This document shows positions 859-48,121 of a DNA stretch of 48,876 nucleotides, piece after piece. The notes below the pieces were generated by a model. That model saw only the letters and a list, made by a program, of their open reading frames with translations, made no database searches and was not told where the DNA came from. A program made the translations under genes and the position numbers. Source of the DNA: Proteiniborus sp. DW1 (GTDB lineage: Bacteria > Bacillota > Clostridia > Tissierellales > Proteiniboraceae); NCBI RefSeq assembly GCF_900095305.1, contig NZ_FMDO01000049.1:1-48876 (forward strand), in the 5' to 3' direction. Each line of letters starts with the position of its first letter. Position 1 is the stretch's first letter.

Positions 859-914
859 TAAAAAAACCTACAGAATCAGCATTATGGTGACTCCGCAGGC
901 TTTATTATCCGCGT
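859..914 (-). terminator. Attenuator-like terminator in the methyltransferase leader
   Basis: On the minus strand CCTGCGGAGTC pairs with GATTCTGTAGG (11 bp with three G-U pairs, loop of about 11) and is followed by TTTTTTT, all before the start codon. An upstream CCTACA (just 5' of the terminator) can pair instead with TGTAGG of the terminator's 3' arm, giving a mutually exclusive antiterminator. Farther upstream TGTATC...GATACA closes another stem. I could not match it to a known riboswitch or T-box consensus. Confidence 0.65.
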
Positions 915-967
915 GTAGGATTTCTCCCTGTATCGCTCACAATTACTAAGTATTTGCTTAGATACAC

Positions 968-1002
968 TCACTATATACGAATATAATTCACTATATATGA
1001 AT
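968..1002. promoter_or_regulatory. Tandem 15-bp operator-like repeats
   Basis: TCACTATATACGAAT (968-982) and TCACTATATATGAAT (988-1002) differ at one base and start exactly 20 bp apart, about two helical turns. Each is a loose dyad around TATATA. They lie at and just downstream of the predicted transcription start of the methyltransferase, where a bound repressor would block initiation. The binding protein is unknown. Confidence 0.5.
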
Positions 1003-1010
1003 TTTTATAT

Positions 1011-1039
1011 ATTATATTTACTTTCATATCTTTTGTCAA
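1011..1039 (-). promoter_or_regulatory. Consensus sigma-A promoter of the methyltransferase gene
   Basis: The minus strand shows TTGACA (1034-1039), a 17-bp spacer and TATAAT (1011-1016), a perfect match in both hexamers. Transcription would start near 1004, giving a leader of about 170 nt. The stretch 1040-1207 upstream holds nothing else that I recognise. Confidence 0.8.
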
Positions 1040-1207
1040 TATTGAAGATACTCTACTTTCCCTACTAGCAATAAATCCTTACACTCTAATTTTATAGGCA
1101 TTATAATTTTTCCTTTAACTAAATCCTTTCTATAGTATAGCTATCTTGCATTAGCTAGGTAATAGGTTTTCTTTCAAATCATAGAATTAGCAACATATCT
1201 AGCTAAC

Positions 1208-1240
1208 AAGTAAAGGAGTAGCCATGCTACTCCTTTACTT
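1208..1240 (-). terminator. Terminator of the siderophore ABC operon
   Basis: A perfect 15-bp stem, AAGTAAAGGAGTAGC paired with GCTACTCCTTTACTT around a 3-base loop. It overlaps the stop codon of the ATPase gene. The T-tract beyond the stem is short, but the stem itself ends in T-rich sequence. Confidence 0.65.
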
Positions 1241-1991
1241 AGTAAGTTGCTATTGGTCCATTAGGACTATTAATAATTTCTATTTTTGTTTCAAAAATAT
1301 CTGTCAGTATTTTTGAGTCCATAATCTCTTCAACTGTTCCAAAAGCAGCTATTTTCCCATTCTTCATGGCACATATTCTATCGGAATATTTCGCTGCAAA
1401 ATTTATATCATGCAAAACAGTCAAAATTGTTCTCCCAAACTTATCAGCGGCGTACCTTAAATGTTCCATCATCTGAACAGAACGTGCCACATCAAGATTG
1501 TTCAAAGGTTCATCCAATAATACATATTCTGTTTCTTGACACAATACCATGGCAACATAGGCCCTTTGCCTTTGACCTCCAGAAAGCTCATCTAGATATC
1601 TATTTTCTAAGTCAGTCAGGCCTAAAAAGTCAATATATTTAGAAATTATATCCTCATCCTTATCTGTTAGCCTTCCCTTAGAATATGGAAAACGCCCAAA
1701 ACCAACTAATTGTCTAACCGTAAGCCTTGTAACAAAATGATTTTCTTGTCGTAAGATAGTCAATATTTTCGCCAAATCTTCTGACTTAGAGGCAGTAACA
1801 TCCATATTTGCCACCTTAATCTGACCTTCATCCATATTCAACAATCTTCCAATCATCAAAAGAGTCGTTGATTTCCCAGCACCATTTGGACCAATTAAAG
1901 AAGTAATCCCAGCTTTTGGTATCGTAATACTCAAAGGCCCTATCGCTACCTCATCAGTATAAACCTTTTTTACATTATCTATATTTATCAT
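1239..1991 (-). CDS. Iron-siderophore ABC transporter ATPase (YclP/FepC type)
   Basis: A 250-residue ABC ATPase with Walker A GPNGAGKST (about residues 35-43), signature LSGGQRQR, Walker B YVLLDEPLNN and the switch histidine in TVLHDINFAAKYSD. The last motif and the length are typical of the FepC/FhuC/BtuD group that powers import of iron chelates and cobalamin. It should act at the inner face of the membrane with the two permeases encoded just upstream. Its ATG overlaps the stop of the preceding permease by 4 bp, which implies translational coupling. It is the last gene of a Fur-box operon and is followed by a strong hairpin. Siderophore rather than cobalamin is inferred from the partner binding protein and the Fur site. 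Confidence 0.92.
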   Translation of the reverse strand: MINIDNVKKVYTDEVAIGPLSITIPKAGITSLIGPNGAGKSTTLLMIGRLLNMDEGQIKVANMDVTASKSEDLAKILTILRQENHFVTRLTVRQLVGFGRFPYSKGRLTDKDEDIISKYIDFLGLTDLENRYLDELSGGQRQRAYVAMVLCQETEYVLLDEPLNNLDVARSVQMMEHLRYAADKFGRTILTVLHDINFAAKYSDRICAMKNGKIAAFGTVEEIMDSKILTDIFETKIEIINSPNGPIATY

Positions 1992-3052
1992 AAAGTCCCC
2001 TTCCTCAACAATACTATTAAGAATGTAATACCACCAAACATTTCGATAATTATTGAAACTACACCCTGTGCATTGAAAACATGATACATAAAGAAATATG
2101 AAGTAGTTATTATCAAGAATCCTATGGCAAGGGACATTGGAAAAATATATCTATGGTCATATGTTGACGCTACTTGATAAGTCAAAGTCGCAACTAAGAA
2201 CCCATAAAAAGTAAGGGGTCCAACTAAGGCTGTTGAAATTGACATTAGTATAGATACTAGTACTAGTCCTAATATTACACCTATTTGATGCTTAACACCC
2301 AAGGCTGTAGAAACATGTTTTCCAAGGGACAATACATTTAGCTTTTTAGAATATCTAATAAGAATTATGGCAGTAATTATTACAATTGGAATTGCAATAG
2401 GAAAATATGAAGGATCTGCATTATTAACAGAGCCAAATAATCTTGCTTGTAAAATATCAAACTCAGATGGAGCAAGTAGCCTTCTCATAAAAGTTGACAA
2501 AGATCTCAAGCCAGTTCCAATAATAACTCCTACTAATAACATTAGCTGTAAATCTCCATACTTCCCTGAAAGTAGCCACCCGTAAAGTATTAAACACATT
2601 AAAACCATAGCAATAACTTGAAATAAAAACGATCCAACACCACTAAAACTTATAAAAGCACTAACTCCAAAGAAAAACATTGTACTTGTCTGAATTGTAG
2701 AATAAAGTGCTTCAAAACCCAATAGGGAAGGTGTTATAACCCTATTACCCGTAATTGATTGAAAAGCAACAGTGGATAAACTCTGACAAATTGCAGCTAT
2801 GACCATAGAAATAATAGCTACCATCCTTCTTTTAACTACTGGGATAAAAGAAGGTGAGCTGACTGGAACTGGATTGTTATAAACCAGAAGTCCATAAGAT
2901 GCCAAAAGTCCCAAGGCAATAAATGTTATAAGTAAGAACCAATAACGTTTTTCTTCTTTCTTAGAACGAAAAGCTCTAGCAGATCTATTTTTAGTATTTA
3001 GTCCTGAGTCTATTTTTGTACTTTCTTTATTTCTATATACGAGTTCGCTCAT
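1988..3052 (-). CDS. Siderophore ABC permease, FecCD family (second subunit)
   Basis: A 354-residue FecCD-type permease: a charged N-terminal tail (about 35 residues), then alternating hydrophobic segments. The family's conserved features are visible, for instance the TGNRVITPSLLGFEALYSTIQT segment after helix 2, LMLLVGVIIGTGLRSLSTFMRR, and the C-terminal STALVGPLTFYGFLVATLTYQ. It should form the membrane channel together with the neighbouring permease. It overlaps both neighbours by 4 bp. Closest in character to YclO of the Bacillus petrobactin system; this is recognition, not a search result. Confidence 0.9.
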   Translation of the reverse strand: MSELVYRNKESTKIDSGLNTKNRSARAFRSKKEEKRYWFLLITFIALGLLASYGLLVYNNPVPVSSPSFIPVVKRRMVAIISMVIAAICQSLSTVAFQSITGNRVITPSLLGFEALYSTIQTSTMFFFGVSAFISFSGVGSFLFQVIAMVLMCLILYGWLLSGKYGDLQLMLLVGVIIGTGLRSLSTFMRRLLAPSEFDILQARLFGSVNNADPSYFPIAIPIVIITAIILIRYSKKLNVLSLGKHVSTALGVKHQIGVILGLVLVSILMSISTALVGPLTFYGFLVATLTYQVASTYDHRYIFPMSLAIGFLIITTSYFFMYHVFNAQGVVSIIIEMFGGITFLIVLLRKGTL

Positions 3053-4062
3053 CTTGACCTCCTTTGTCTCAATAAAACTACTATAAATACCACCGAGCCC
3101 AGTGTTCCAAGTATCATTGAGACAGGTACTTCAAAGGGCATTATAATAGTTCGAGAAATTATATCACAAACAGTTATAGTTCCCATTCCTATAACACATA
3201 CCCAAGGCAAATTACTCCTAAGATCATCGCCTCTATACATGGAAACAATATTTGGAACAATTAACCCTAAAAAAGGTAAATTCCCAATAACAGCTGCAAC
3301 AATTCCTACAGCAAGAGCAATAAGACCAGTACCCAAAAGAACTATATTATTATAGTTCAATCCGAGACTTGTTGTCATATCTTGTCCTAGTCCAGCTAAA
3401 GTAAATCTGTCAGCATAGATAAAAATAAAGAAAGTAACTATAACAATTAACCATAAGTATTCATATCTACCAACTTGAACTGGTGCAAAGGATCCCACAA
3501 ACCATGTTTCAATATTTTGTGTCATCTGAAATACAAGTCCAATAAAAGTAGAGAATGCAGAAATCACCGCACCAAGCATCATCCCAATAATAGGTACTAT
3601 TAAAGACGAACGGAGTTTTACTCTTCTTAAAAAGAAAAAGAAAATCATAGTTCCAGCAAAAGAAAAGATAATAGCACCAGTCATTCTTTGAACTAAGGTT
3701 GGTGCAGGAAATAATAGATAGACAATTGTAAGTCCCAAGCCTGCCCACTCAATAGTTCCAGTTGTAGTAGATTCAACTAAACGATTCTGTGTAATAAGTT
3801 GCATTACTAGTCCTGACATAGACATTGCAGCACCAGTAAGCATTAGTGCAATAGTTCTTGGAACACGAGTTATGAAAAACATTCTCATTCCATCTTCTTG
3901 TCCTCGTATATCGTAAACTCCTGTAAACAGTGATATAATGCCCAAAATCACAACAAGCAAAATCGCTAAAATAAAAGGTTTCGTCCATATTCTATTGTTA
4001 TTACAGCGTTTGGGCTGAGAACTCTCAGCCCTTGCCATTGTTTGAATTGTATTTTTTTGCAC
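3049..4062 (-). CDS. Siderophore ABC permease, FecCD family (first subunit)
   Basis: A 337-residue FecCD-family permease. After a short tail it has a first helix (FILAILLVVILGIISLF), the conserved VPRTIALMLTGAAMSMSGLVMQLITQNRL stretch, and the C-terminal GNLPFLGLIVPNIVSMYRGDD motif that contacts the ATPase. The start is GTG at 4060-4062, behind AAAGGGG at an 8-base spacing. It lies 16 bp after the binding-protein gene and overlaps the second permease by 4 bp. It resembles YclN/CeuB-type subunits of catecholate siderophore importers. Confidence 0.9.
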   Translation of the reverse strand: MQKNTIQTMARAESSQPKRCNNNRIWTKPFILAILLVVILGIISLFTGVYDIRGQEDGMRMFFITRVPRTIALMLTGAAMSMSGLVMQLITQNRLVESTTTGTIEWAGLGLTIVYLLFPAPTLVQRMTGAIIFSFAGTMIFFFFLRRVKLRSSLIVPIIGMMLGAVISAFSTFIGLVFQMTQNIETWFVGSFAPVQVGRYEYLWLIVIVTFFIFIYADRFTLAGLGQDMTTSLGLNYNNIVLLGTGLIALAVGIVAAVIGNLPFLGLIVPNIVSMYRGDDLRSNLPWVCVIGMGTITVCDIISRTIIMPFEVPVSMILGTLGSVVFIVVLLRQRRSR

Positions 4063-4078
4063 TTAATATACCCCTTTA

Positions 4079-5113
4079 CTACTTAGCTAGAGCATTTGCA
4101 ATATCTTGAAATAATTCTAGATAAGTTTGAATTGATTCATTAGTGTAAGTATCTGCTGGTGCATAAACTATATTTCCTTCTCTTACTGCTTTTGTGTTTT
4201 GAAGAGCAGGTGAATTATCTATCACATCTTGTGCAGGAACTGCATCAGTTGTAGAAGATACTGCAGCATCACGATCTAGCACGAATATCCAATCAGGATT
4301 ACTTTGAGCAATAGCTTCAACAGAAATTTCATCCCCTTGATGATCTGAAGTAGCACTATTGATATCTAAGGCTGGAACCCATCCAAAGATTTCATACATT
4401 GGCCCCCAAACACGTCCAGAATGAGGTGCTGAGAAGCCAATATTTCCAGCAGAAACTATGACACTCATGATTTTATCTGTTCCGTTATATGAAGTCTTCA
4501 CATCTTCTATAGCTTTGTCAAATTCAGCTACTAATTTTTCAGCCTCTTCATTTTTATCAAAGATTTTTCCTAATGCGATTGTAGAATCCTTTAGTCCACT
4601 TACTAAGTTTTCACCAGGCGTAGCAGCAGTCTCAGAAACATCAAAATTTAAATCAATAACTACTGCATTGGGAACTAGTGCCTTTATGTCTTCATAGAAG
4701 CTTGCAAATCTTTGACCGATAATTACAAGTTCAGGTTCTACAGCAGCTATAATTTCAAGATTTGGTTCGCGGTGATTTCCAACATCTAGTACTGACTCAT
4801 CAGCCACATATGGTGAATCTGCTGGCATTACTCCCTTAGGAACTGCTGCTAATTTAATTCCCCAATCAGATAATGTTTCAAATGTCCTATTGTCTAATGC
4901 AACTACGTTCTTAGGATTTACAGGAACAGTAACAGTTCCATGAACATCTGTAATTTCTACTGTTGTAGGTTCAGATACTGTTGGTTGCTCATTGCTTGTT
5001 TGCTCGTTAGCTACAGGTTGAGTAGTTTCATTACTTGAGCTTGAACAAGCTGTAATCATTAAAGCAAAAACTGTAATGACAGAAATAAGTATAAATAACT
5101 TTGATTTTTTCAT
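4079..5113 (-). CDS. Siderophore-binding lipoprotein (YclQ/CeuE/FatB type)
   Basis: A substrate-binding lipoprotein of about 344 residues. I place the start at 5113 (MKKSKLFILIS) because the ATG has GGAG eight bases upstream and opens a signal peptide ending in the lipobox ITAC; a longer reading frame upstream lacks these. After a low-complexity Ser/Thr/Glu linker comes the periplasmic-binding TroA-like fold: PKNVVALDNRTFETLSDWGI, EPNLEIIAAVEPELVIIGQR, LVSGLKDSTIALGKIFDK, and IAQSNPDWIFVLDRD. This pattern fits the CeuE/YclQ family, which binds catecholate or mixed siderophores such as petrobactin. It is the first gene of the operon, as is usual for the protein needed in excess, and lies below a Fur box. 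Confidence 0.9.
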   Translation of the reverse strand: MKKSKLFILISVITVFALMITACSSSSNETTQPVANEQTSNEQPTVSEPTTVEITDVHGTVTVPVNPKNVVALDNRTFETLSDWGIKLAAVPKGVMPADSPYVADESVLDVGNHREPNLEIIAAVEPELVIIGQRFASFYEDIKALVPNAVVIDLNFDVSETAATPGENLVSGLKDSTIALGKIFDKNEEAEKLVAEFDKAIEDVKTSYNGTDKIMSVIVSAGNIGFSAPHSGRVWGPMYEIFGWVPALDINSATSDHQGDEISVEAIAQSNPDWIFVLDRDAAVSSTTDAVPAQDVIDNSPALQNTKAVREGNIVYAPADTYTNESIQTYLELFQDIANALAK

Positions 5114-5248
5114 AATTTCTCTCCTTTTGTATATTCTGATTATGTAGCAATTATTGAAATGATGAACTAATATCAAGGCAATATTTATATGCTATAGTAA
5201 GCTAATCATTTTCCATTAAAATCTCGTATATATAACACGGGGTTATTT

Positions 5249-5267
5249 GATAATAATTCTCATTGTC
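5249..5267. promoter_or_regulatory. Fur box upstream of the siderophore operon
   Basis: GATAATAATTCTCATTGTC matches the 19-bp Fur consensus GATAATGATAATCATTATC at 15 positions. It overlaps a minus-strand TTGACA (5264-5269) that could be the -35 element; the matching -10 is not clear. A half site, AATCATTTTC, lies nearer the gene at 5204-5213. Iron-replete Fur would repress transcription here. The rest of 5114-5344 is AT-rich leader. Confidence 0.75.
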
Positions 5268-5339
5268 AATAACTTATTTTAATATAACAAATCCAATATA
5301 AACTGTCAACTCTTTTTCTATATCATTTTCTTTCCATAT

Positions 5340-5375
5340 AAAAAGTGGACCTAGAAAAAAATATTCTAAGTCCAC
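5340..5375 (-). terminator. Terminator downstream of yaaA
   Basis: On the minus strand GTGGAC-TTAGAA...TTCTAG-GTCCAC forms a two-part stem followed by TTTTTAT. It lies about 150 bp past the yaaA stop. The stretch between them (5376-5524) holds no recognisable gene. Confidence 0.7.
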
Positions 5376-5524
5376 CTACCTTGCAATTTAAACAACTACC
5401 TTGAAAAGTTACAATGCATCTAAAAATATTGTCATTATTCGCCATTATCTTTTAATAGTAATATGAGCCTAGCATCTTGAAGTTGGTCATAATTATAGTT
5501 CAAATATCTGGTACTATTGCCCAA

Positions 5525-6274
5525 TTACGTTTCCTTCTTTAAAAAAACATATGTGTTTTTATTCGATAAATGCTCTTTAAAAACATAATTTAGTCTATCA
5601 AAGCTTTTAATATCCTCTATATATTCAATCTTATTTTCTGCCATAAACCTTACCATTTCTCCTCTTGCCATCTTTACTAGTGTGCCTTTTTCTATTATCT
5701 TTTCATCAATCATTTCACCAAAGACACAAGTAACAAATCTTATATTTTCATTTAAATATTTAGATATACATTTGCTGTATTCTTTAGATGCCAAGTTTAC
5801 AATACAATTACTCTCTGAAAAAAGCTTATTTGCTATCTTACTATTCCAAAATTCGTAAAGCGTGCTTAAGTTATATCCTTTTAACTTTGCCTGCATTTCC
5901 AACCTGTATGTCACCACCCCATCAAATGGACGCAGCATACCATAAAAACCTGAAAGAATACGAAGATGTTCCTCAATATATTCATATTCTTCGGTTTGAA
6001 ACACCACTGGAGCCATATATTGATACTGAATACCTTCAAATGAAAGAATTGCTGGAGTCAAATTACGGTACAAATTCATACTCTGTATTCTTTCATAATT
6101 AAGAGTAGCTATTTTATCATTGCAATCCCAAATTGATTTCAAATCTTCATAACTTAATCCTTTTAAATATTCCATCAGTATCTTAGTGTCATCTATAAAA
6201 TAAGGAAGTTGATTATAATTTAAAGTATCTGTATCTACTTTCATCTTCTTTGCAGGTGAAATAATAATTCTCAT
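5525..6274 (-). CDS. yaaA: Peroxide stress protein YaaA (DUF328/UPF0246)
   Basis: The protein begins MRIIISPAKKMK, the family's signature start, and continues through FEGIQYQYMAP, ILSGFYGMLRPFDGV, YRLEMQAKL, NLASKEYSK and KMARGEMVRFM, all conserved in the YaaA family. In E. coli YaaA lowers intracellular iron during peroxide stress and binds DNA; the Clostridial role is inferred. Length is about 250 residues, normal for the family. I chose the ATG at 6274, with GGAGG six bases upstream. The frame stays open upstream, but only by translating the 25-bp repeats at 6288-6373, so an earlier start would be an artefact. Neighbouring the iron importer is suggestive but they are separate units. Confidence 0.9.
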   Translation of the reverse strand: MRIIISPAKKMKVDTDTLNYNQLPYFIDDTKILMEYLKGLSYEDLKSIWDCNDKIATLNYERIQSMNLYRNLTPAILSFEGIQYQYMAPVVFQTEEYEYIEEHLRILSGFYGMLRPFDGVVTYRLEMQAKLKGYNLSTLYEFWNSKIANKLFSESNCIVNLASKEYSKCISKYLNENIRFVTCVFGEMIDEKIIEKGTLVKMARGEMVRFMAENKIEYIEDIKSFDRLNYVFKEHLSNKNTYVFLKKET

Positions 6275-9829: not shown

Positions 9830-10110
9830 AGGAGATTATTACCCAAGTCCTCTATTGTTATGTTTGATATGTATTTTTAGGGTATATCAAATATAGTTTT
9901 GGCACCGGTATGTCCTTCTTTACTAAATCTGTAAATCCCCCTTGCATAAACCATTAGTATACTAGCAATAAATTCAGAATTGCTATCGCTATCCAGCTTT
10001 AGAGAAAATTCTGATTTTATTATTCAATAGATTCACTCCCAAATCTAATATTTAATATTATAGTAAATATATTCAAACTCGAAGTTAAAAATAAAAATCT
10101 CAATAAAAAT
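9830..10110. other. Gene-free AT-rich stretch
   Basis: No convincing frame on either strand. It holds one weak hairpin, TTTGATAT...ATATCAAA near 9863-9892, with no good T-tract; it might end transcription of the small gene upstream. Confidence 0.5.
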
Positions 10111-10193: not shown

Positions 10194-10442
10194 CTAGTAC
10201 ATTAACTTATTAATATTAATTTGCTTAATAGCAGGACATTTTTTCTTCTCTTTAGGTCTATAAAATTCAATTAAAACTTTTCTTTCATCTTTTTTATCTT
10301 CTGTTTTTTTGTCCTCTATTATGTCACTTATAGCTTCATTGCATGTTCCACAAAGCTTGTCCGTAGGTACACGATATAAAATGTACTCCTCATTTGCTAA
10401 TCTTATAAGCTTAGCATCATCTTTATTTGCTATAAACATCAT
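10194..10442 (-). CDS. Small conserved-looking hypothetical protein with a CxxC motif
   Basis: I start this at 10442 (MMFIANKDDAKLIRLANEEY), where TAGGGGG lies seven bases upstream; the frame is open farther up but without a binding site. The product is about 82 residues, with LCGTC in the middle, a very lysine/glutamate-rich stretch (EDKKTEDKKDERK) and a late cysteine (KKKCPAIK). Three cysteines could bind a metal, but a complete four-ligand site is not visible. No signal peptide or membrane segment. Function unknown. It is divergent from the regulator gene at 10638, sharing the intergenic region, so it may be controlled by that regulator; this is inference. Confidence 0.6.
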   Translation of the reverse strand: MMFIANKDDAKLIRLANEEYILYRVPTDKLCGTCNEAISDIIEDKKTEDKKDERKVLIEFYRPKEKKKCPAIKQININKLMY

Positions 10443-10571
10443 TTTTAATCCCCCTAATATCAATAATATCTTTACTGAATTTCTATGTATGCCAAATATG
10501 CTATCCTGTTTATAAGTAAGCCAATTTACCTCAATAATATTATAACTCAATAAAAAAATATTGTAAACCTC

Positions 10572-10600
10572 TTTACATTTATTTTTATATGTGATATTCT
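10572..10600 (+). promoter_or_regulatory. Promoter of the HTH-TPR regulator
   Basis: TTTACA (10572-10577), 17 bp, TATTCT (10595-10600); start expected near 10607, leaving a leader of about 30 nt. Confidence 0.55.
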
Positions 10601-10637
10601 AATCTAAAGTAAAATTAATTATATTTAGGTTGAAAGG

Positions 10638-11963
10638 TTGATTGTTTTGGAAGAGCATTTTGAAGTTACTGTAGGTCAAAATCTAAAAAGAATAAGAAAA
10701 GATCTAGGTCTAAGGCAGCATCAGATTGCTGGTGAGGATATTACTAGAAACCTGATTAGTCTTATTGAAAATGATAAGGCTACATTATATGACACTGCAG
10801 CTAATATAATGGCTAGAAATATTAATAAAATTATGAGTGAAAAAAACTTAAACATTTTCATTAAACCAGAAGATTTGCTTAACCCTAAAAGATACAATGC
10901 AAGAAAAAAAGCTGATACATATATTGAAAGATTAGAAGATGACTTAATCAATAAAAAATTTGACATTAAATCGAACGAGCTTAATGAAATTGAAGCTTTT
11001 TTAAATGAATGGGATTTAACTGATAAGAAGGTAAAGATATATGAGCTATTAGGAGACATTTTTTATGCTTCTAATAATTCAAACAAGGAATACTACTATT
11101 ATTTTAAAGCTTTAGAATCCTCTTATGATTTTCCGAATATGAAGGGCCGCTATAAGATTGCACTTAAATTAGTTTTTAATTGCATAGTCACAGGCAAATG
11201 CGATGAAGCCATTAATTTATGTAAATATATGTTACTCAGTCAAAATGACATACCAGATATGTATAAAGGTGTGTTTTATTATAACAGTGCTTTAGCTTAC
11301 AAAAAATTAAAAGAATATGATAATTGCTTAAATAATTTAGATATTGCCAAAAAATACATTGATGATACTAGTGATAATTTTAAAAAAATATTAATGCTAG
11401 AAGGCATTTCTTATTATGAAACTAAAAACTACAATAAAGCCTTAGTAAGCTATGAGAAATTTTTAGAAATACTCGGTGAAACAAATCGTTTTGACGAAAT
11501 TTGTGCAACATACATAAATATAGTTCAAATTCATATAAAGAGAAACGATAAAGAAAGTATTCTGAAATACTTTGATAAAATTATGACTACTCTTCCATAC
11601 ATAGATGATGATTCATTTTATCTTACCGAAATATACTATGAAATATCAAATGTTTTTTTATACTTAAATAATTATGAAGAGTCTGAGAAGTATTTAAATA
11701 CGGCTTTAGCCTCATCAAAAAAATTTGGAATGCATAATCTCTATAAAAAGTTTCTAGGTAAACTAATGGAGCTATATATTAATACAAACAGCTTAGATAA
11801 ATTATCTGATCTGTTAAAAACAATAGATGATGAGATTATTAATATTAGATTCAAAGAAGATTTTATATTAGTACTCAAACTTTTACTATATTTCATAAAG
11901 CAAAATAACTATAAAGAAGCAGAAAACTTAATAATAGATTTATTACAAAAAAAGGAGGTATAA
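10638..11963 (+). CDS. RRNPP-type regulator: N-terminal Xre-like HTH plus TPR repeats
   Basis: About 441 residues. The N-terminus (about 10-70) is an Xre/HTH_3 DNA-binding domain: GQNLKRIRKDLGLRQHQIAG, then ITRNLISLIENDKATL as the recognition region. From about residue 130 on there are helical TPR-like repeats, such as YYYFKALESS, GVFYYNSALAYKKLKEYDNC, EGISYYETKNYNKALVSYEK, and ISNVFLYLNNYEESEKYLNTAL. This architecture is that of PlcR/Rgg/Qsr-type receptors, in which TPRs bind an imported peptide and alter DNA binding. The start is TTG: 10638 (AGGT eight bases upstream) or 10647 (AAAGG nine bases upstream). A secreted-peptide gene follows after 3 bp, which supports the assignment. Target genes are unknown. 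Confidence 0.88.
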   Translation: MIVLEEHFEVTVGQNLKRIRKDLGLRQHQIAGEDITRNLISLIENDKATLYDTAANIMARNINKIMSEKNLNIFIKPEDLLNPKRYNARKKADTYIERLEDDLINKKFDIKSNELNEIEAFLNEWDLTDKKVKIYELLGDIFYASNNSNKEYYYYFKALESSYDFPNMKGRYKIALKLVFNCIVTGKCDEAINLCKYMLLSQNDIPDMYKGVFYYNSALAYKKLKEYDNCLNNLDIAKKYIDDTSDNFKKILMLEGISYYETKNYNKALVSYEKFLEILGETNRFDEICATYINIVQIHIKRNDKESILKYFDKIMTTLPYIDDDSFYLTEIYYEISNVFLYLNNYEESEKYLNTALASSKKFGMHNLYKKFLGKLMELYINTNSLDKLSDLLKTIDDEIINIRFKEDFILVLKLLLYFIKQNNYKEAENLIIDLLQKKEV

Positions 11964-11966
11964 TTA

Positions 11967-12113
11967 ATGAAAAAGAAAATTCTTGTTCTATTATCAGTTT
12001 TAACTCTTATTACAACTCTAAGCAATATAGCCTTTGCAGGTACAGTAGATCCACCACCTATTAGAGAACTATCTATTAGAATTTCTGACAACATCATAAA
12101 ATTATCAGAGTAA
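11967..12113 (+). CDS. Secreted pro-peptide, candidate signal for the upstream RRNPP regulator
   Basis: A 48-codon gene. The first 24 residues are a signal peptide: MKKK, a hydrophobic core ILVLLSVLTLITTL, and a cleavage-like SNIAFA|G site. The mature part would be GTVDPPPIRELSIRISDNII plus KLSE, with a triple proline near its start. The ribosome binding site GGAGGT lies in the last codons of the regulator and is optimally spaced; the gap between genes is 3 bp. The same pairing (TPR regulator, then a small exported peptide) defines PlcR-PapR, NprR-NprX and the Clostridial Qsr-Qsp systems. Which residues form the active signal cannot be read from the sequence. Confidence 0.8.
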   Translation: MKKKILVLLSVLTLITTLSNIAFAGTVDPPPIRELSIRISDNIIKLSE

Positions 12114-12211
12114 TGAATACCAAAAGCATTACACCTATTGATAAAACCTGAAAAATTAGATGAACTTCACAGCCCACTTTTATGTAGGTAAAAAACAAGC
12201 TTTTCACAAAA

Positions 12212-12246
12212 AATAAGCCTTAGGACTCTAAGGCTTATTTTTTTCA
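12212..12246 (+). terminator. Terminator of the regulator-peptide operon
   Basis: AATAAGCCTTAG-GACT-CTAAGGCTTATT, a perfect 12-bp stem with a tetraloop, then TTTTTT. It lies about 100 bp past the peptide gene. The interval 12114-12211 shows no further frame. Confidence 0.93.
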
Positions 12247-12340: not shown

Positions 12341-13930
<1,590 letters not shown>

Positions 13931-46841: not shown

Positions 46842-47464
46842 TATGCATACACCTCCTCCACTTTTTTAACAGCATCCTTAGTTATGATGAATGAATCGTA
46901 TTTAAGAATGTCATATACATTAAGAGTATTTGTTAAGCTAGTTTGAACTCCTGGTATATTTCTTGCTGACTTAATTACATTTTCATTCTTTTCAGCCATA
47001 ACGATTAATGCCTTTTTGCTAGAATTTATGTTCTTTAAGATATTTACCATATCTTTTGTTTTAGGTTGAGTTAGATTTAATTCATCTAATACAATAATTT
47101 CTTTGTTTTCAACCTTTGAGCTTAATGCGCTCTTCATAGCTAATCTCTTAACCTTTTTAGGAATAGCATAGCTATAATCTCTTGGTTTTGGAGCAAATAC
47201 TACTCCACCACCTATCCATTGAGGTGCTCTTATGCTTCCTTGACGAGCTCTACCTGTTCCTTTTTGTCTCCAAGGTTTTCTTCCTCCACCTCTTACTTCT
47301 GCTCTTGTTTTAGCTGATTGAGTACCTTGTCTTTTATTTGCAAGCTGGTTCTTTACAGCTTCGTATAAAACGTGTTGGTTTACTTCAACTCCAAATACCG
47401 CATCGCTTAACTCTATATCACCAATTTGTTGGCCTGATACATTATATAAAGCTACCTTTGGCAT
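46841..47464 (-). CDS. rplD: 50S ribosomal protein L4
   Basis: A 207-residue L4 (L4/L1e family). Visible: [20 protein letters not shown], the tunnel loop [38 protein letters not shown], and [16 protein letters not shown]. In E. coli L4 represses the S10 operon via its leader; in Firmicutes this is not established. Overlaps rplW by 1 bp. Confidence 0.98.
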
Positions 47465-47488
47465 CTAACTTCCTCCTTTCCTAAGAAC

Positions 47489-48121
47489 TTACTTTGAAGC
47501 CTTTACAGATTCTTTTATTGTAATTAGTCCGCCTTTTGGTCCTGGAACAGCACCTTTAACTAATATGAAGTTCTTCTCTGCATCTACTCTTATAACTTCT
47601 AGGTTTTGTACTGTTACTCTCTCATGTCCCATGTGACCAGGCATTTTCTTGCCCTTAAATATTCTCGATGGAGTAGCTGAACCACCCATTGAACCTATTC
47701 CTCTATGATATTTAGAACCGTGTGACATAGGTCCTCTACCTTGGTTATGTCTCTTAATAGCACCTTGGAATCCCTTACCCTTAGATATTCCAGTTGCATC
47801 TACTCTATCTCCTGCTGAGAATACATCAGCTTTTATTTCTTGGCCTATTTCATAAGCATCTATATCATCAACTCTAATTTCTTTTAAATATCTTTTAGCT
47901 TCTGTACTTGCCTTTTCAAAGTGGCCTTTTAATGGTTTATTAACTCTTTTTTCTTTAACATCACCATAGCCTACTTGGATTGCATTGTAACCGTCTTTTT
48001 CTACGGTTTTTTTCTGAACAACTTTTATTGGACCAACTTCGATTACTGTAACCGGAATTACTATTCCTTCCTCAGTAAATACTTGTGTCATTCCAATCTT
48101 TTTACCTAATATACTTTTCAT
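47489..48121 (-). CDS. rplC: 50S ribosomal protein L3
   Basis: A 210-residue L3 starting [20 protein letters not shown]. The ATG at 48121 has AGGAGGTGTAAAG upstream, so the longer frame upstream is not used. The extended loop near the peptidyl transferase centre is seen in [47 protein letters not shown]. It initiates 50S assembly. About 90 bp separate it from rpsJ. Confidence 0.98.

Follow-up and report, generated by a model that had tools for sequence, protein, structure and literature searches.

A two-gene cassette of the RRNPP type, in which a self-repressing nine-TPR regulator would be released by its own re-imported peptide, is predicted in a contig of Proteiniborus sp. DW1, and we put the probability of this reading at roughly 0.82. 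The whole stretch of DNA that was analysed, 48,876 nucleotides, is referred to as the window. Sequence comparison supports the gene pair, its conservation, a repeated signal core, a single hypervariable position and an operator that overlaps the promoter. The original prediction of an RRNPP-type regulator-peptide cassette thus finds support in the conservation among relatives, the repeated core, the operator over the promoter and matches to NprR and Rap.

The gene pair and its conservation

The regulator gene lies on the + strand at 10647..11963 (stop codon 11961-11963) and encodes a receptor with an HTH and nine TPR-like helix pairs. The TTG start codon proposed originally was retained, with its position moved: TTG 10647 (438 aa) is probably the start rather than TTG 10638 (441 aa), because a Shine-Dalgarno-like GAAAGG abuts 10638 and the homologous genes of a congeneric genome (G002) begin at the aligned codon. 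The propeptide gene (11967..12113, + strand, 48 codons) starts with ATG 11967, 3 bp past the regulator stop, and its product, MKKKILVLLSVLTLITTLSNIAFAGTVDPPPIRELSIRISDNIIKLSE, carries a Sec-type signal sequence with a cleavage-like site, AFA/G. Its ribosome binding site, AAGGAGG (11952..11958, + strand), is located within the final codons of the regulator. A hairpin of 16 pairs with a 4-base loop follows at 12208..12243 (+ strand), with a folding energy of about -19 kcal/mol compared to -7.35 (sd 2.25) for shuffled sequences (z -5.2). A simple terminator scan of the window found 0 terminators, probably owing to base-pairing of the T run. The arrangement originally described (regulator, 3 bp gap, signal-bearing small ORF, internal ribosome binding site and strong terminator) was therefore confirmed from the window, and the pairing exceeds chance among relatives.

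To describe the pairing in relatives, homologues were kept at a score of at least 60 bits, duplicates with identical last 150 residues were dropped, and six regulators with less than 250 bases of flank were skipped (L026, L127, L128, L005, one of L094, and L086). A small ORF was scored as signal-bearing if it had 25-140 codons, started between -60 and +150 of the regulator stop, and contained an uncharged hydrophobic segment preceded by two basic residues, a rule applied in place of SignalP. The controls were 225 ORF ends taken elsewhere in these loci. Among the distinct homologues scoring at least 340 bits, a threshold chosen after the list had been seen, 39 of 45 are followed by such an ORF compared to 19 of 225 controls (Fisher p 3e-26), and a P-x-P motif after residue 20 is found in 32 of 45 compared to 0 of 225, scored over all controls (p 2e-31); both p-values are overstated because related sequences are not independent. 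Over all 85 filtered homologues (at least 60 bits), a signal-like ORF accompanies 50 and P-x-P occurs in 37, and below 340 bits the small ORF is found in 11 of 40. The original prediction had named retention of the small ORF wherever the regulator is retained as a test; the count of 39/45 bears it out.

Six regulators at or above 340 bits are peptide-less, of which three are truncated (open frames of 266, 371 and 419 codons). With an open frame of at least 425 codons, 3 of 42 regulators at this level have no detectable peptide (L036, L061, L064); these are maybe orphan receptors, or their peptide gene lies elsewhere. In Clostridium sp. UBA1056 (G553), positions 900-5880 of locus L146 hold three tandem regulators of the same receptor family as that of the window, with two signal-bearing small ORFs between them on the opposite strand, ending GPGECEPK and YPGETEPK. 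Because of their orientation, the small-ORF rule misses these peptides.

As judged from sequence, the gene pair is not isolated and belongs to a family with members elsewhere in the order. Within the order, a four-sequence profile (E ≤1e-12) matched 36 genomes out of 199, own genome included, with G011 and G017 matched over the HTH region only. Within the class, a 41-sequence profile (1e-20) matched 18 out of 391, own included, in a search that scored up to 4 candidates per genome. Named genomes yielded 38 loci when scanned, including Schnuerera, Tissierella, [Clostridium] ultunense, Thermohalobacter, Caloranaerobacter, Maledivibacter and several Clostridium species. A single-protein scan of genome contigs found no relative, phages gave no match to peptide or regulator, and plasmids gave only distant matches in Acetoanaerobium and Ilyobacter; with a Clostridium homologue as query, RstA was also obtained. 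Alignments A3 and A4 were built without the truncated or partial regulators of L108, L107 (second copy), L123, L127, L130 and L133. Six regulator copies are present in Tissierella simiarum (G133, L053-L057), of which two are shortened and peptide-less by the rule, and the four others carry differing cores (PDPVMP, NPEPM, GDPTRP and GDPIMP).

At 438-441 aa, the regulator is inside the range of RRNPP(A) receptors (250-500 aa). TPR_2 and TPR_12 match above their cut-offs, and TPR_12 is matched in 40 of 41 family members. HTH_19 matches residues 13-65 with an E-value of 1.9e-4, below its curated cut-off (21.7 of 30.2 bits), and is matched in 28 of 41 members. The structure model (mean pLDDT 85) has an HTH followed by nine helix pairs, and the helices at 12-68 form a block of pLDDT 91-95. 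The best RRNPP neighbours by VIA-align are NprR (Z 19.8, 5.9 A over 320 residues) and RapI (Z 18.5, 4.5 A over 269), the neighbours being led by general TPR proteins with LGN at the top (Z 23.3). Profile matches to NprR (8.4e-17) and RapH (6.1e-14) likewise rank below consensus TPR and LGN proteins. The fold alone is no proof of a pheromone receptor, because general TPR proteins (LGN/Pins, consensus TPRs) outscore NprR and Rap by fold and by profile; in a further comparison they fill all 50 matches listed. PlcR and AimR are absent among the 50 structural matches listed, which is no evidence against kinship.

Two relatives, in L145 (G010:C12, 199-3365) and L033 (G026), have no HTH and consist of TPR only (361 and 367 aa). 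Their genes directly follow a gene for a PAS histidine kinase (by 42 bp in G010, the genome for which domains were scanned) and precede a precursor containing LQIDPPPLKN or LQLDPPPLKN. In L145, no operator within one mismatch was found in the ~136 bases available before the kinase gene. This pair is possibly a Rap-like, kinase-linked branch of the family.

The predicted signal core

Tandem copies of a core (2-8) are present in 10 of the 39 precursors, with repeat labels set by hand and some of the repeats loose (for example L027). One G002 precursor repeats GEINPEPIR[ED] three times, and its companion has G[PV]IFPEPT[RK] twice; between copies 1 and 3 of one G002 precursor (L007), there are 4 synonymous and 0 non-synonymous differences. 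GPDPIRAE occurs six times in the L024 precursor, VVPEP[RW]S[VI]DV eight times in that of L029, which is the same as L112 of Thermohalobacter berrensis, and ILPDPERI twice in another. Since relatives repeat the core 2-8 times, the signal of the window can be narrowed to about VDPPPIRE, residues 27-34 of the peptide (12045..12068, + strand), with a predicted trimmed length of 7-10 residues; conservation outside the signal sequence is restricted to a core of about six residues. The long mature peptide of the original prediction is ruled out as too long, the core alone being repeated and conserved. The peptide has no match in Pfam, and its two matches in NCBIfam are both below cut-off.

In the clade of the window, 12 single-copy precursors show seven different residues in the middle of P-x-P (P, A, E, R, L, Y and S). 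The four fixed codons of P.PIR show 87 synonymous differences in 264 comparisons, compared to 26 synonymous and 342 non-synonymous differences in 396 comparisons for the six codons just upstream. The 12 precursors were picked for carrying P.PIR, which partly predetermines the absence of non-synonymous change in these codons but has no bearing on the synonymous changes or the variable neighbours. Specificity may be set by this single hypervariable position, flanked by two invariant prolines. In Rap-Phr, a single variable position in the mature pheromone has been read as a sign of specificity (PMC9765709). By eye, the receptor tree mostly separates the P-x-P-I-R, P-x-P-E-R, M/TRP and P-x-P-W groups, with exceptions that include L024 and L065; the core type of L031 in this tree was labelled by rule from a wrong stretch.

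In a model of the regulator fused to the peptide, the peptide rises above pLDDT 50 only at VDPPPIR (470-476, peptide residues 27-33) and at residue 448, with three aligned rows fused as well. The raised pLDDT fits docking in the receptor, and the three fused rows may be its source. For L112, modelled with no other fused rows, the repeats come out as an array of strands at low confidence, from which no docking can be read.

Operator, promoters and neighbouring genes

Upstream of the regulator, a palindromic operator, TTGTAAACCTCTTTACAT (10561..10578, without strand), with the core GTAAA-N4-TTTAC, is predicted from sequence. Its halves would supply the -35 hexamers of two divergent promoters: that of the cassette (TTTACA, 17 bp, TATTCT; 10572..10600, + strand), and a promoter-like site (TTTACA, 17 bp, TATAAT, 11/12; 10539..10567, - strand) before a gene for a small CxxC protein, the latter called by promoter scan. 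The call for the cassette promoter, also seen in the scan, rests on relatives and not on the scan, because the 12 promoter-like sites in the window are not above the 14.3 in shuffles. The stretch originally annotated begins at the -35 of this promoter.

In a sample of 67 upstream regions (regulators scoring at least 150 bits, profile start at or before 20, at least 120 bases upstream), a perfect GTAAA-N4-TTTAC is found in 21, compared to a resampling mean of 0.05 and maximum of 1. All are among the 32 best-scoring regulators (21/32), with 0/35 among the others. Every one of the 21 overlies a -35, with a -10 at 16-18 bp (17 bp in 20 cases), and TATAAT is perfect in 9. When the -10 search is moved to shifted positions as a control, its mean success rate is 22%, but the worst shift reaches 81%.

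Across the 3.12 Mb of the window's genome, the perfect palindromic 18-mer is present only at the two intact cassettes, and the core occurs three times, two of them at these cassettes, compared to 11 in the reversed control. The third core site, on C21, lies ~220 bp before a gene that we take to be phosphoribosyltransferase-like. A wide regulon was tried and rejected: the relaxed 18-mer gave 143 and 163 sites compared to 146 and 143 in controls, alongside the core count of 3 compared to 11. The five other genomes scanned contain the core 8-12 times each, near the control or below. It is rarer than its reversed control in the window's genome (G000, 3 vs 11) and G002 (9 vs 18), and shows no depletion in G001, where the cassette is absent (12 vs 13), or in three genomes with a cassette, G037 (11 vs 10), G056 (8 vs 9) and G062 (10 vs 9). 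Avoidance of stray operators is therefore doubtful. Given that the core occurs three times in the genome and twice at intact cassettes, the regulator probably acts on its own promoter and, in the window's genome, perhaps on the CxxC gene.

The CxxC gene (10194..10442, - strand, 82 codons, from the ORF list) was proposed as the target. In favour, it shares the palindrome and has the 11/12 promoter-like site; against this, a search of 100 genomes of the order found it in its own genome alone, and it is thus at best a local target. As a conserved target it is ruled out by this count; in G002 and G001 a different gene, presumably diaminopimelate dehydrogenase-like, occupies its place. The CxxC protein has no match in Pfam or NCBIfam. 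Beside the CxxC gene, positions 9857-10049 of the window share ~69% DNA identity with a portion of the dehydrogenase-like gene that G001 has at the equivalent site, and are probably a remnant of such a gene.

A paralogue of the regulator on C3 is 70% identical and is paired with a 44-aa precursor that ends in AFAEIDPAPIREETYSIVNILEY. On C57 (L003, G000:C57, about 46900-47900), beside a gene that we assume to be amidase-like, there is a third copy, which is truncated at both ends and has no peptide; its sequence reads as the decay of a third cassette. Past the terminator, positions 12341-13930 of the window hold an ABC-type gene, presumably ABC-F-like, and two ABC-type genes, which we take to be exporter-like, follow the C3 copy (L147, 6374-9866). 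Of the same genus, G002 has two tandem regulator-peptide pairs before the same gene as that at 12341-13930, and G001 has neither cassette nor CxxC gene, its dehydrogenase-like and ABC-F-like genes (both names presumed) being direct neighbours. The cassette is therefore dispensable.

Proposed mechanism and comparison with known systems

We infer the export, processing, uptake, binding, sign of regulation and output of the cassette. The regulator would bind, probably as a dimer, to GTAAA-N4-TTTAC over its own -35, and would keep expression of the cassette low, along with that of the divergent CxxC gene. Sec would export the small protein, signal peptidase would cleave it near AFA/G, and trimming would leave 7-10 residues around VDPPPIRE. 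The signal would re-enter via an oligopeptide permease, sit in the concave TPR groove and release the repressor, so that the cassette would switch itself on at density. The oligopeptide-binding family PF00496 has 12 matches in the window's genome, all over cut-off; such permeases exist, and uptake of this peptide is a separate matter.

The same cassette could work with the opposite sign, as a peptide-dependent activator that recruits RNA polymerase at the -35, in the manner of PlcR-PapR. Class II activators bind near the position of this operator, and the -10 is poorer in some promoters (TATTCT, TATCCT). However, the operator covers a -35 that matches TTGACA at 5/6 positions in the window, and the -10 is perfect in 9 of the 21 promoters, so the promoters look strong unaided; in addition, QsrB of Clostridium acetobutylicum behaves as a repressor relieved by peptide (PMC7376267). 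For these reasons repression is preferred to activation and appears reasonably likely, and the activator is the main, though unlikely, alternative.

The conserved core of about six residues, its 2-8 tandem copies in some relatives, largely matched to receptor clade, and the full TPR superhelix of the regulator all speak against a small ORF that encodes merely an exported effector (a bacteriocin-like or toxin peptide), controlled by the regulator with no signalling back. A small exported peptide adjoining a regulator would fit such a role, there are no evident output genes, and genes presumed to be ABC-transporter-like lie past the terminator here and past the C3 copy; even so, we consider an effector improbable. 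Still less probable is that regulator and ORF have lost their function in this genome and survive as a decaying or orphan relic. This would agree with the truncated, peptide-less third copy and with the absence of a cassette at the syntenic site of G001, but the window and C3 copies are intact, and operator, promoter and peptide core have been kept at 70% protein identity.

The comparison turns a single guessed pair into a testable family with a signal of 7-10 residues, one likely specificity position and a reporter-ready operator. The scarcity of the operator outside cassettes in the window's genome raises the question of what a self-targeting switch controls. Tentatively, and with more doubt than belief, we picture a Tissierellales-wide pheromone family in which the middle residue of P-x-P would set a private channel for each species, the DNA targets would have shrunk to little more than the own promoter, and the HTH-less branch (G010, G026) would have been recruited to a place behind a PAS histidine kinase, with the same pheromone class gating the kinase. 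If true, DNA-binding receptors and Rap-like partners of kinases would be the two ends of one natural series. The HTH-less, kinase-linked branch bears on the origin of Rap-like receptors.

RRNPP systems and multi-copy precursors are already known, and what appears new here is the P-x-P core and the operator proper to the family. RRNPP systems, Clostridia members among them, have been published (PMC10075063, PMC12700828, PMC7376267, PMC7206700), and precursors with up to six copies (PMC9765709) and, by citation, up to eight (PMC11343458) are on record. RRNPP_detector, which relies on gene pairs of this kind, yielded 21 new candidate subfamilies of high confidence, and one candidate-regulated gene cluster that it reports lies in Tissierellaceae (PMC10075063). 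For Tissierellales RRNPP systems, only this bulk prediction was found in the literature searched. Literature searches gave no description of the family among the matches listed, with the supplementary tables of PMC10075063 outside the comparison.

In PlcR-PapR, as in the window, a regulator is followed by a short exported peptide in one unit. The two differ in fold: the model here has nine helix pairs, and PlcR is placed among five-TPR folds (PMC12700828). The Qsr-Qsp system of C. acetobutylicum and QssR-QssP of C. saccharoperbutylacetonicum also pair a regulator with an exported precursor. Qsp precursors of C. acetobutylicum have 39-50 aa, and the active QspB7, AEPTWGW, has a conserved proline and tryptophan (PMC7376267); it recalls the P-x-P-W branch of our family (L037, L060, L112), which is distant from the branch of the window. 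The window precursor (48 aa), unlike these, has PPPIRE and no tryptophan, and departs from the leucine/proline/tryptophan C-terminal feature of Qsr-Qsp. The best RRNPP matches by fold and profile are NprR-NprX and Rap-Phr, whose nine-TPR receptors form 'clan B' (PMC12700828). They share with the window an HTH and nine TPR-like helix pairs (Rap without the HTH), an adjacent exported propeptide and multi-copy precursors, whereas the window's family is distinguished by its P-x-P core, located 14 residues before the precursor end in the window, and by the operator GTAAA-N4-TTTAC.
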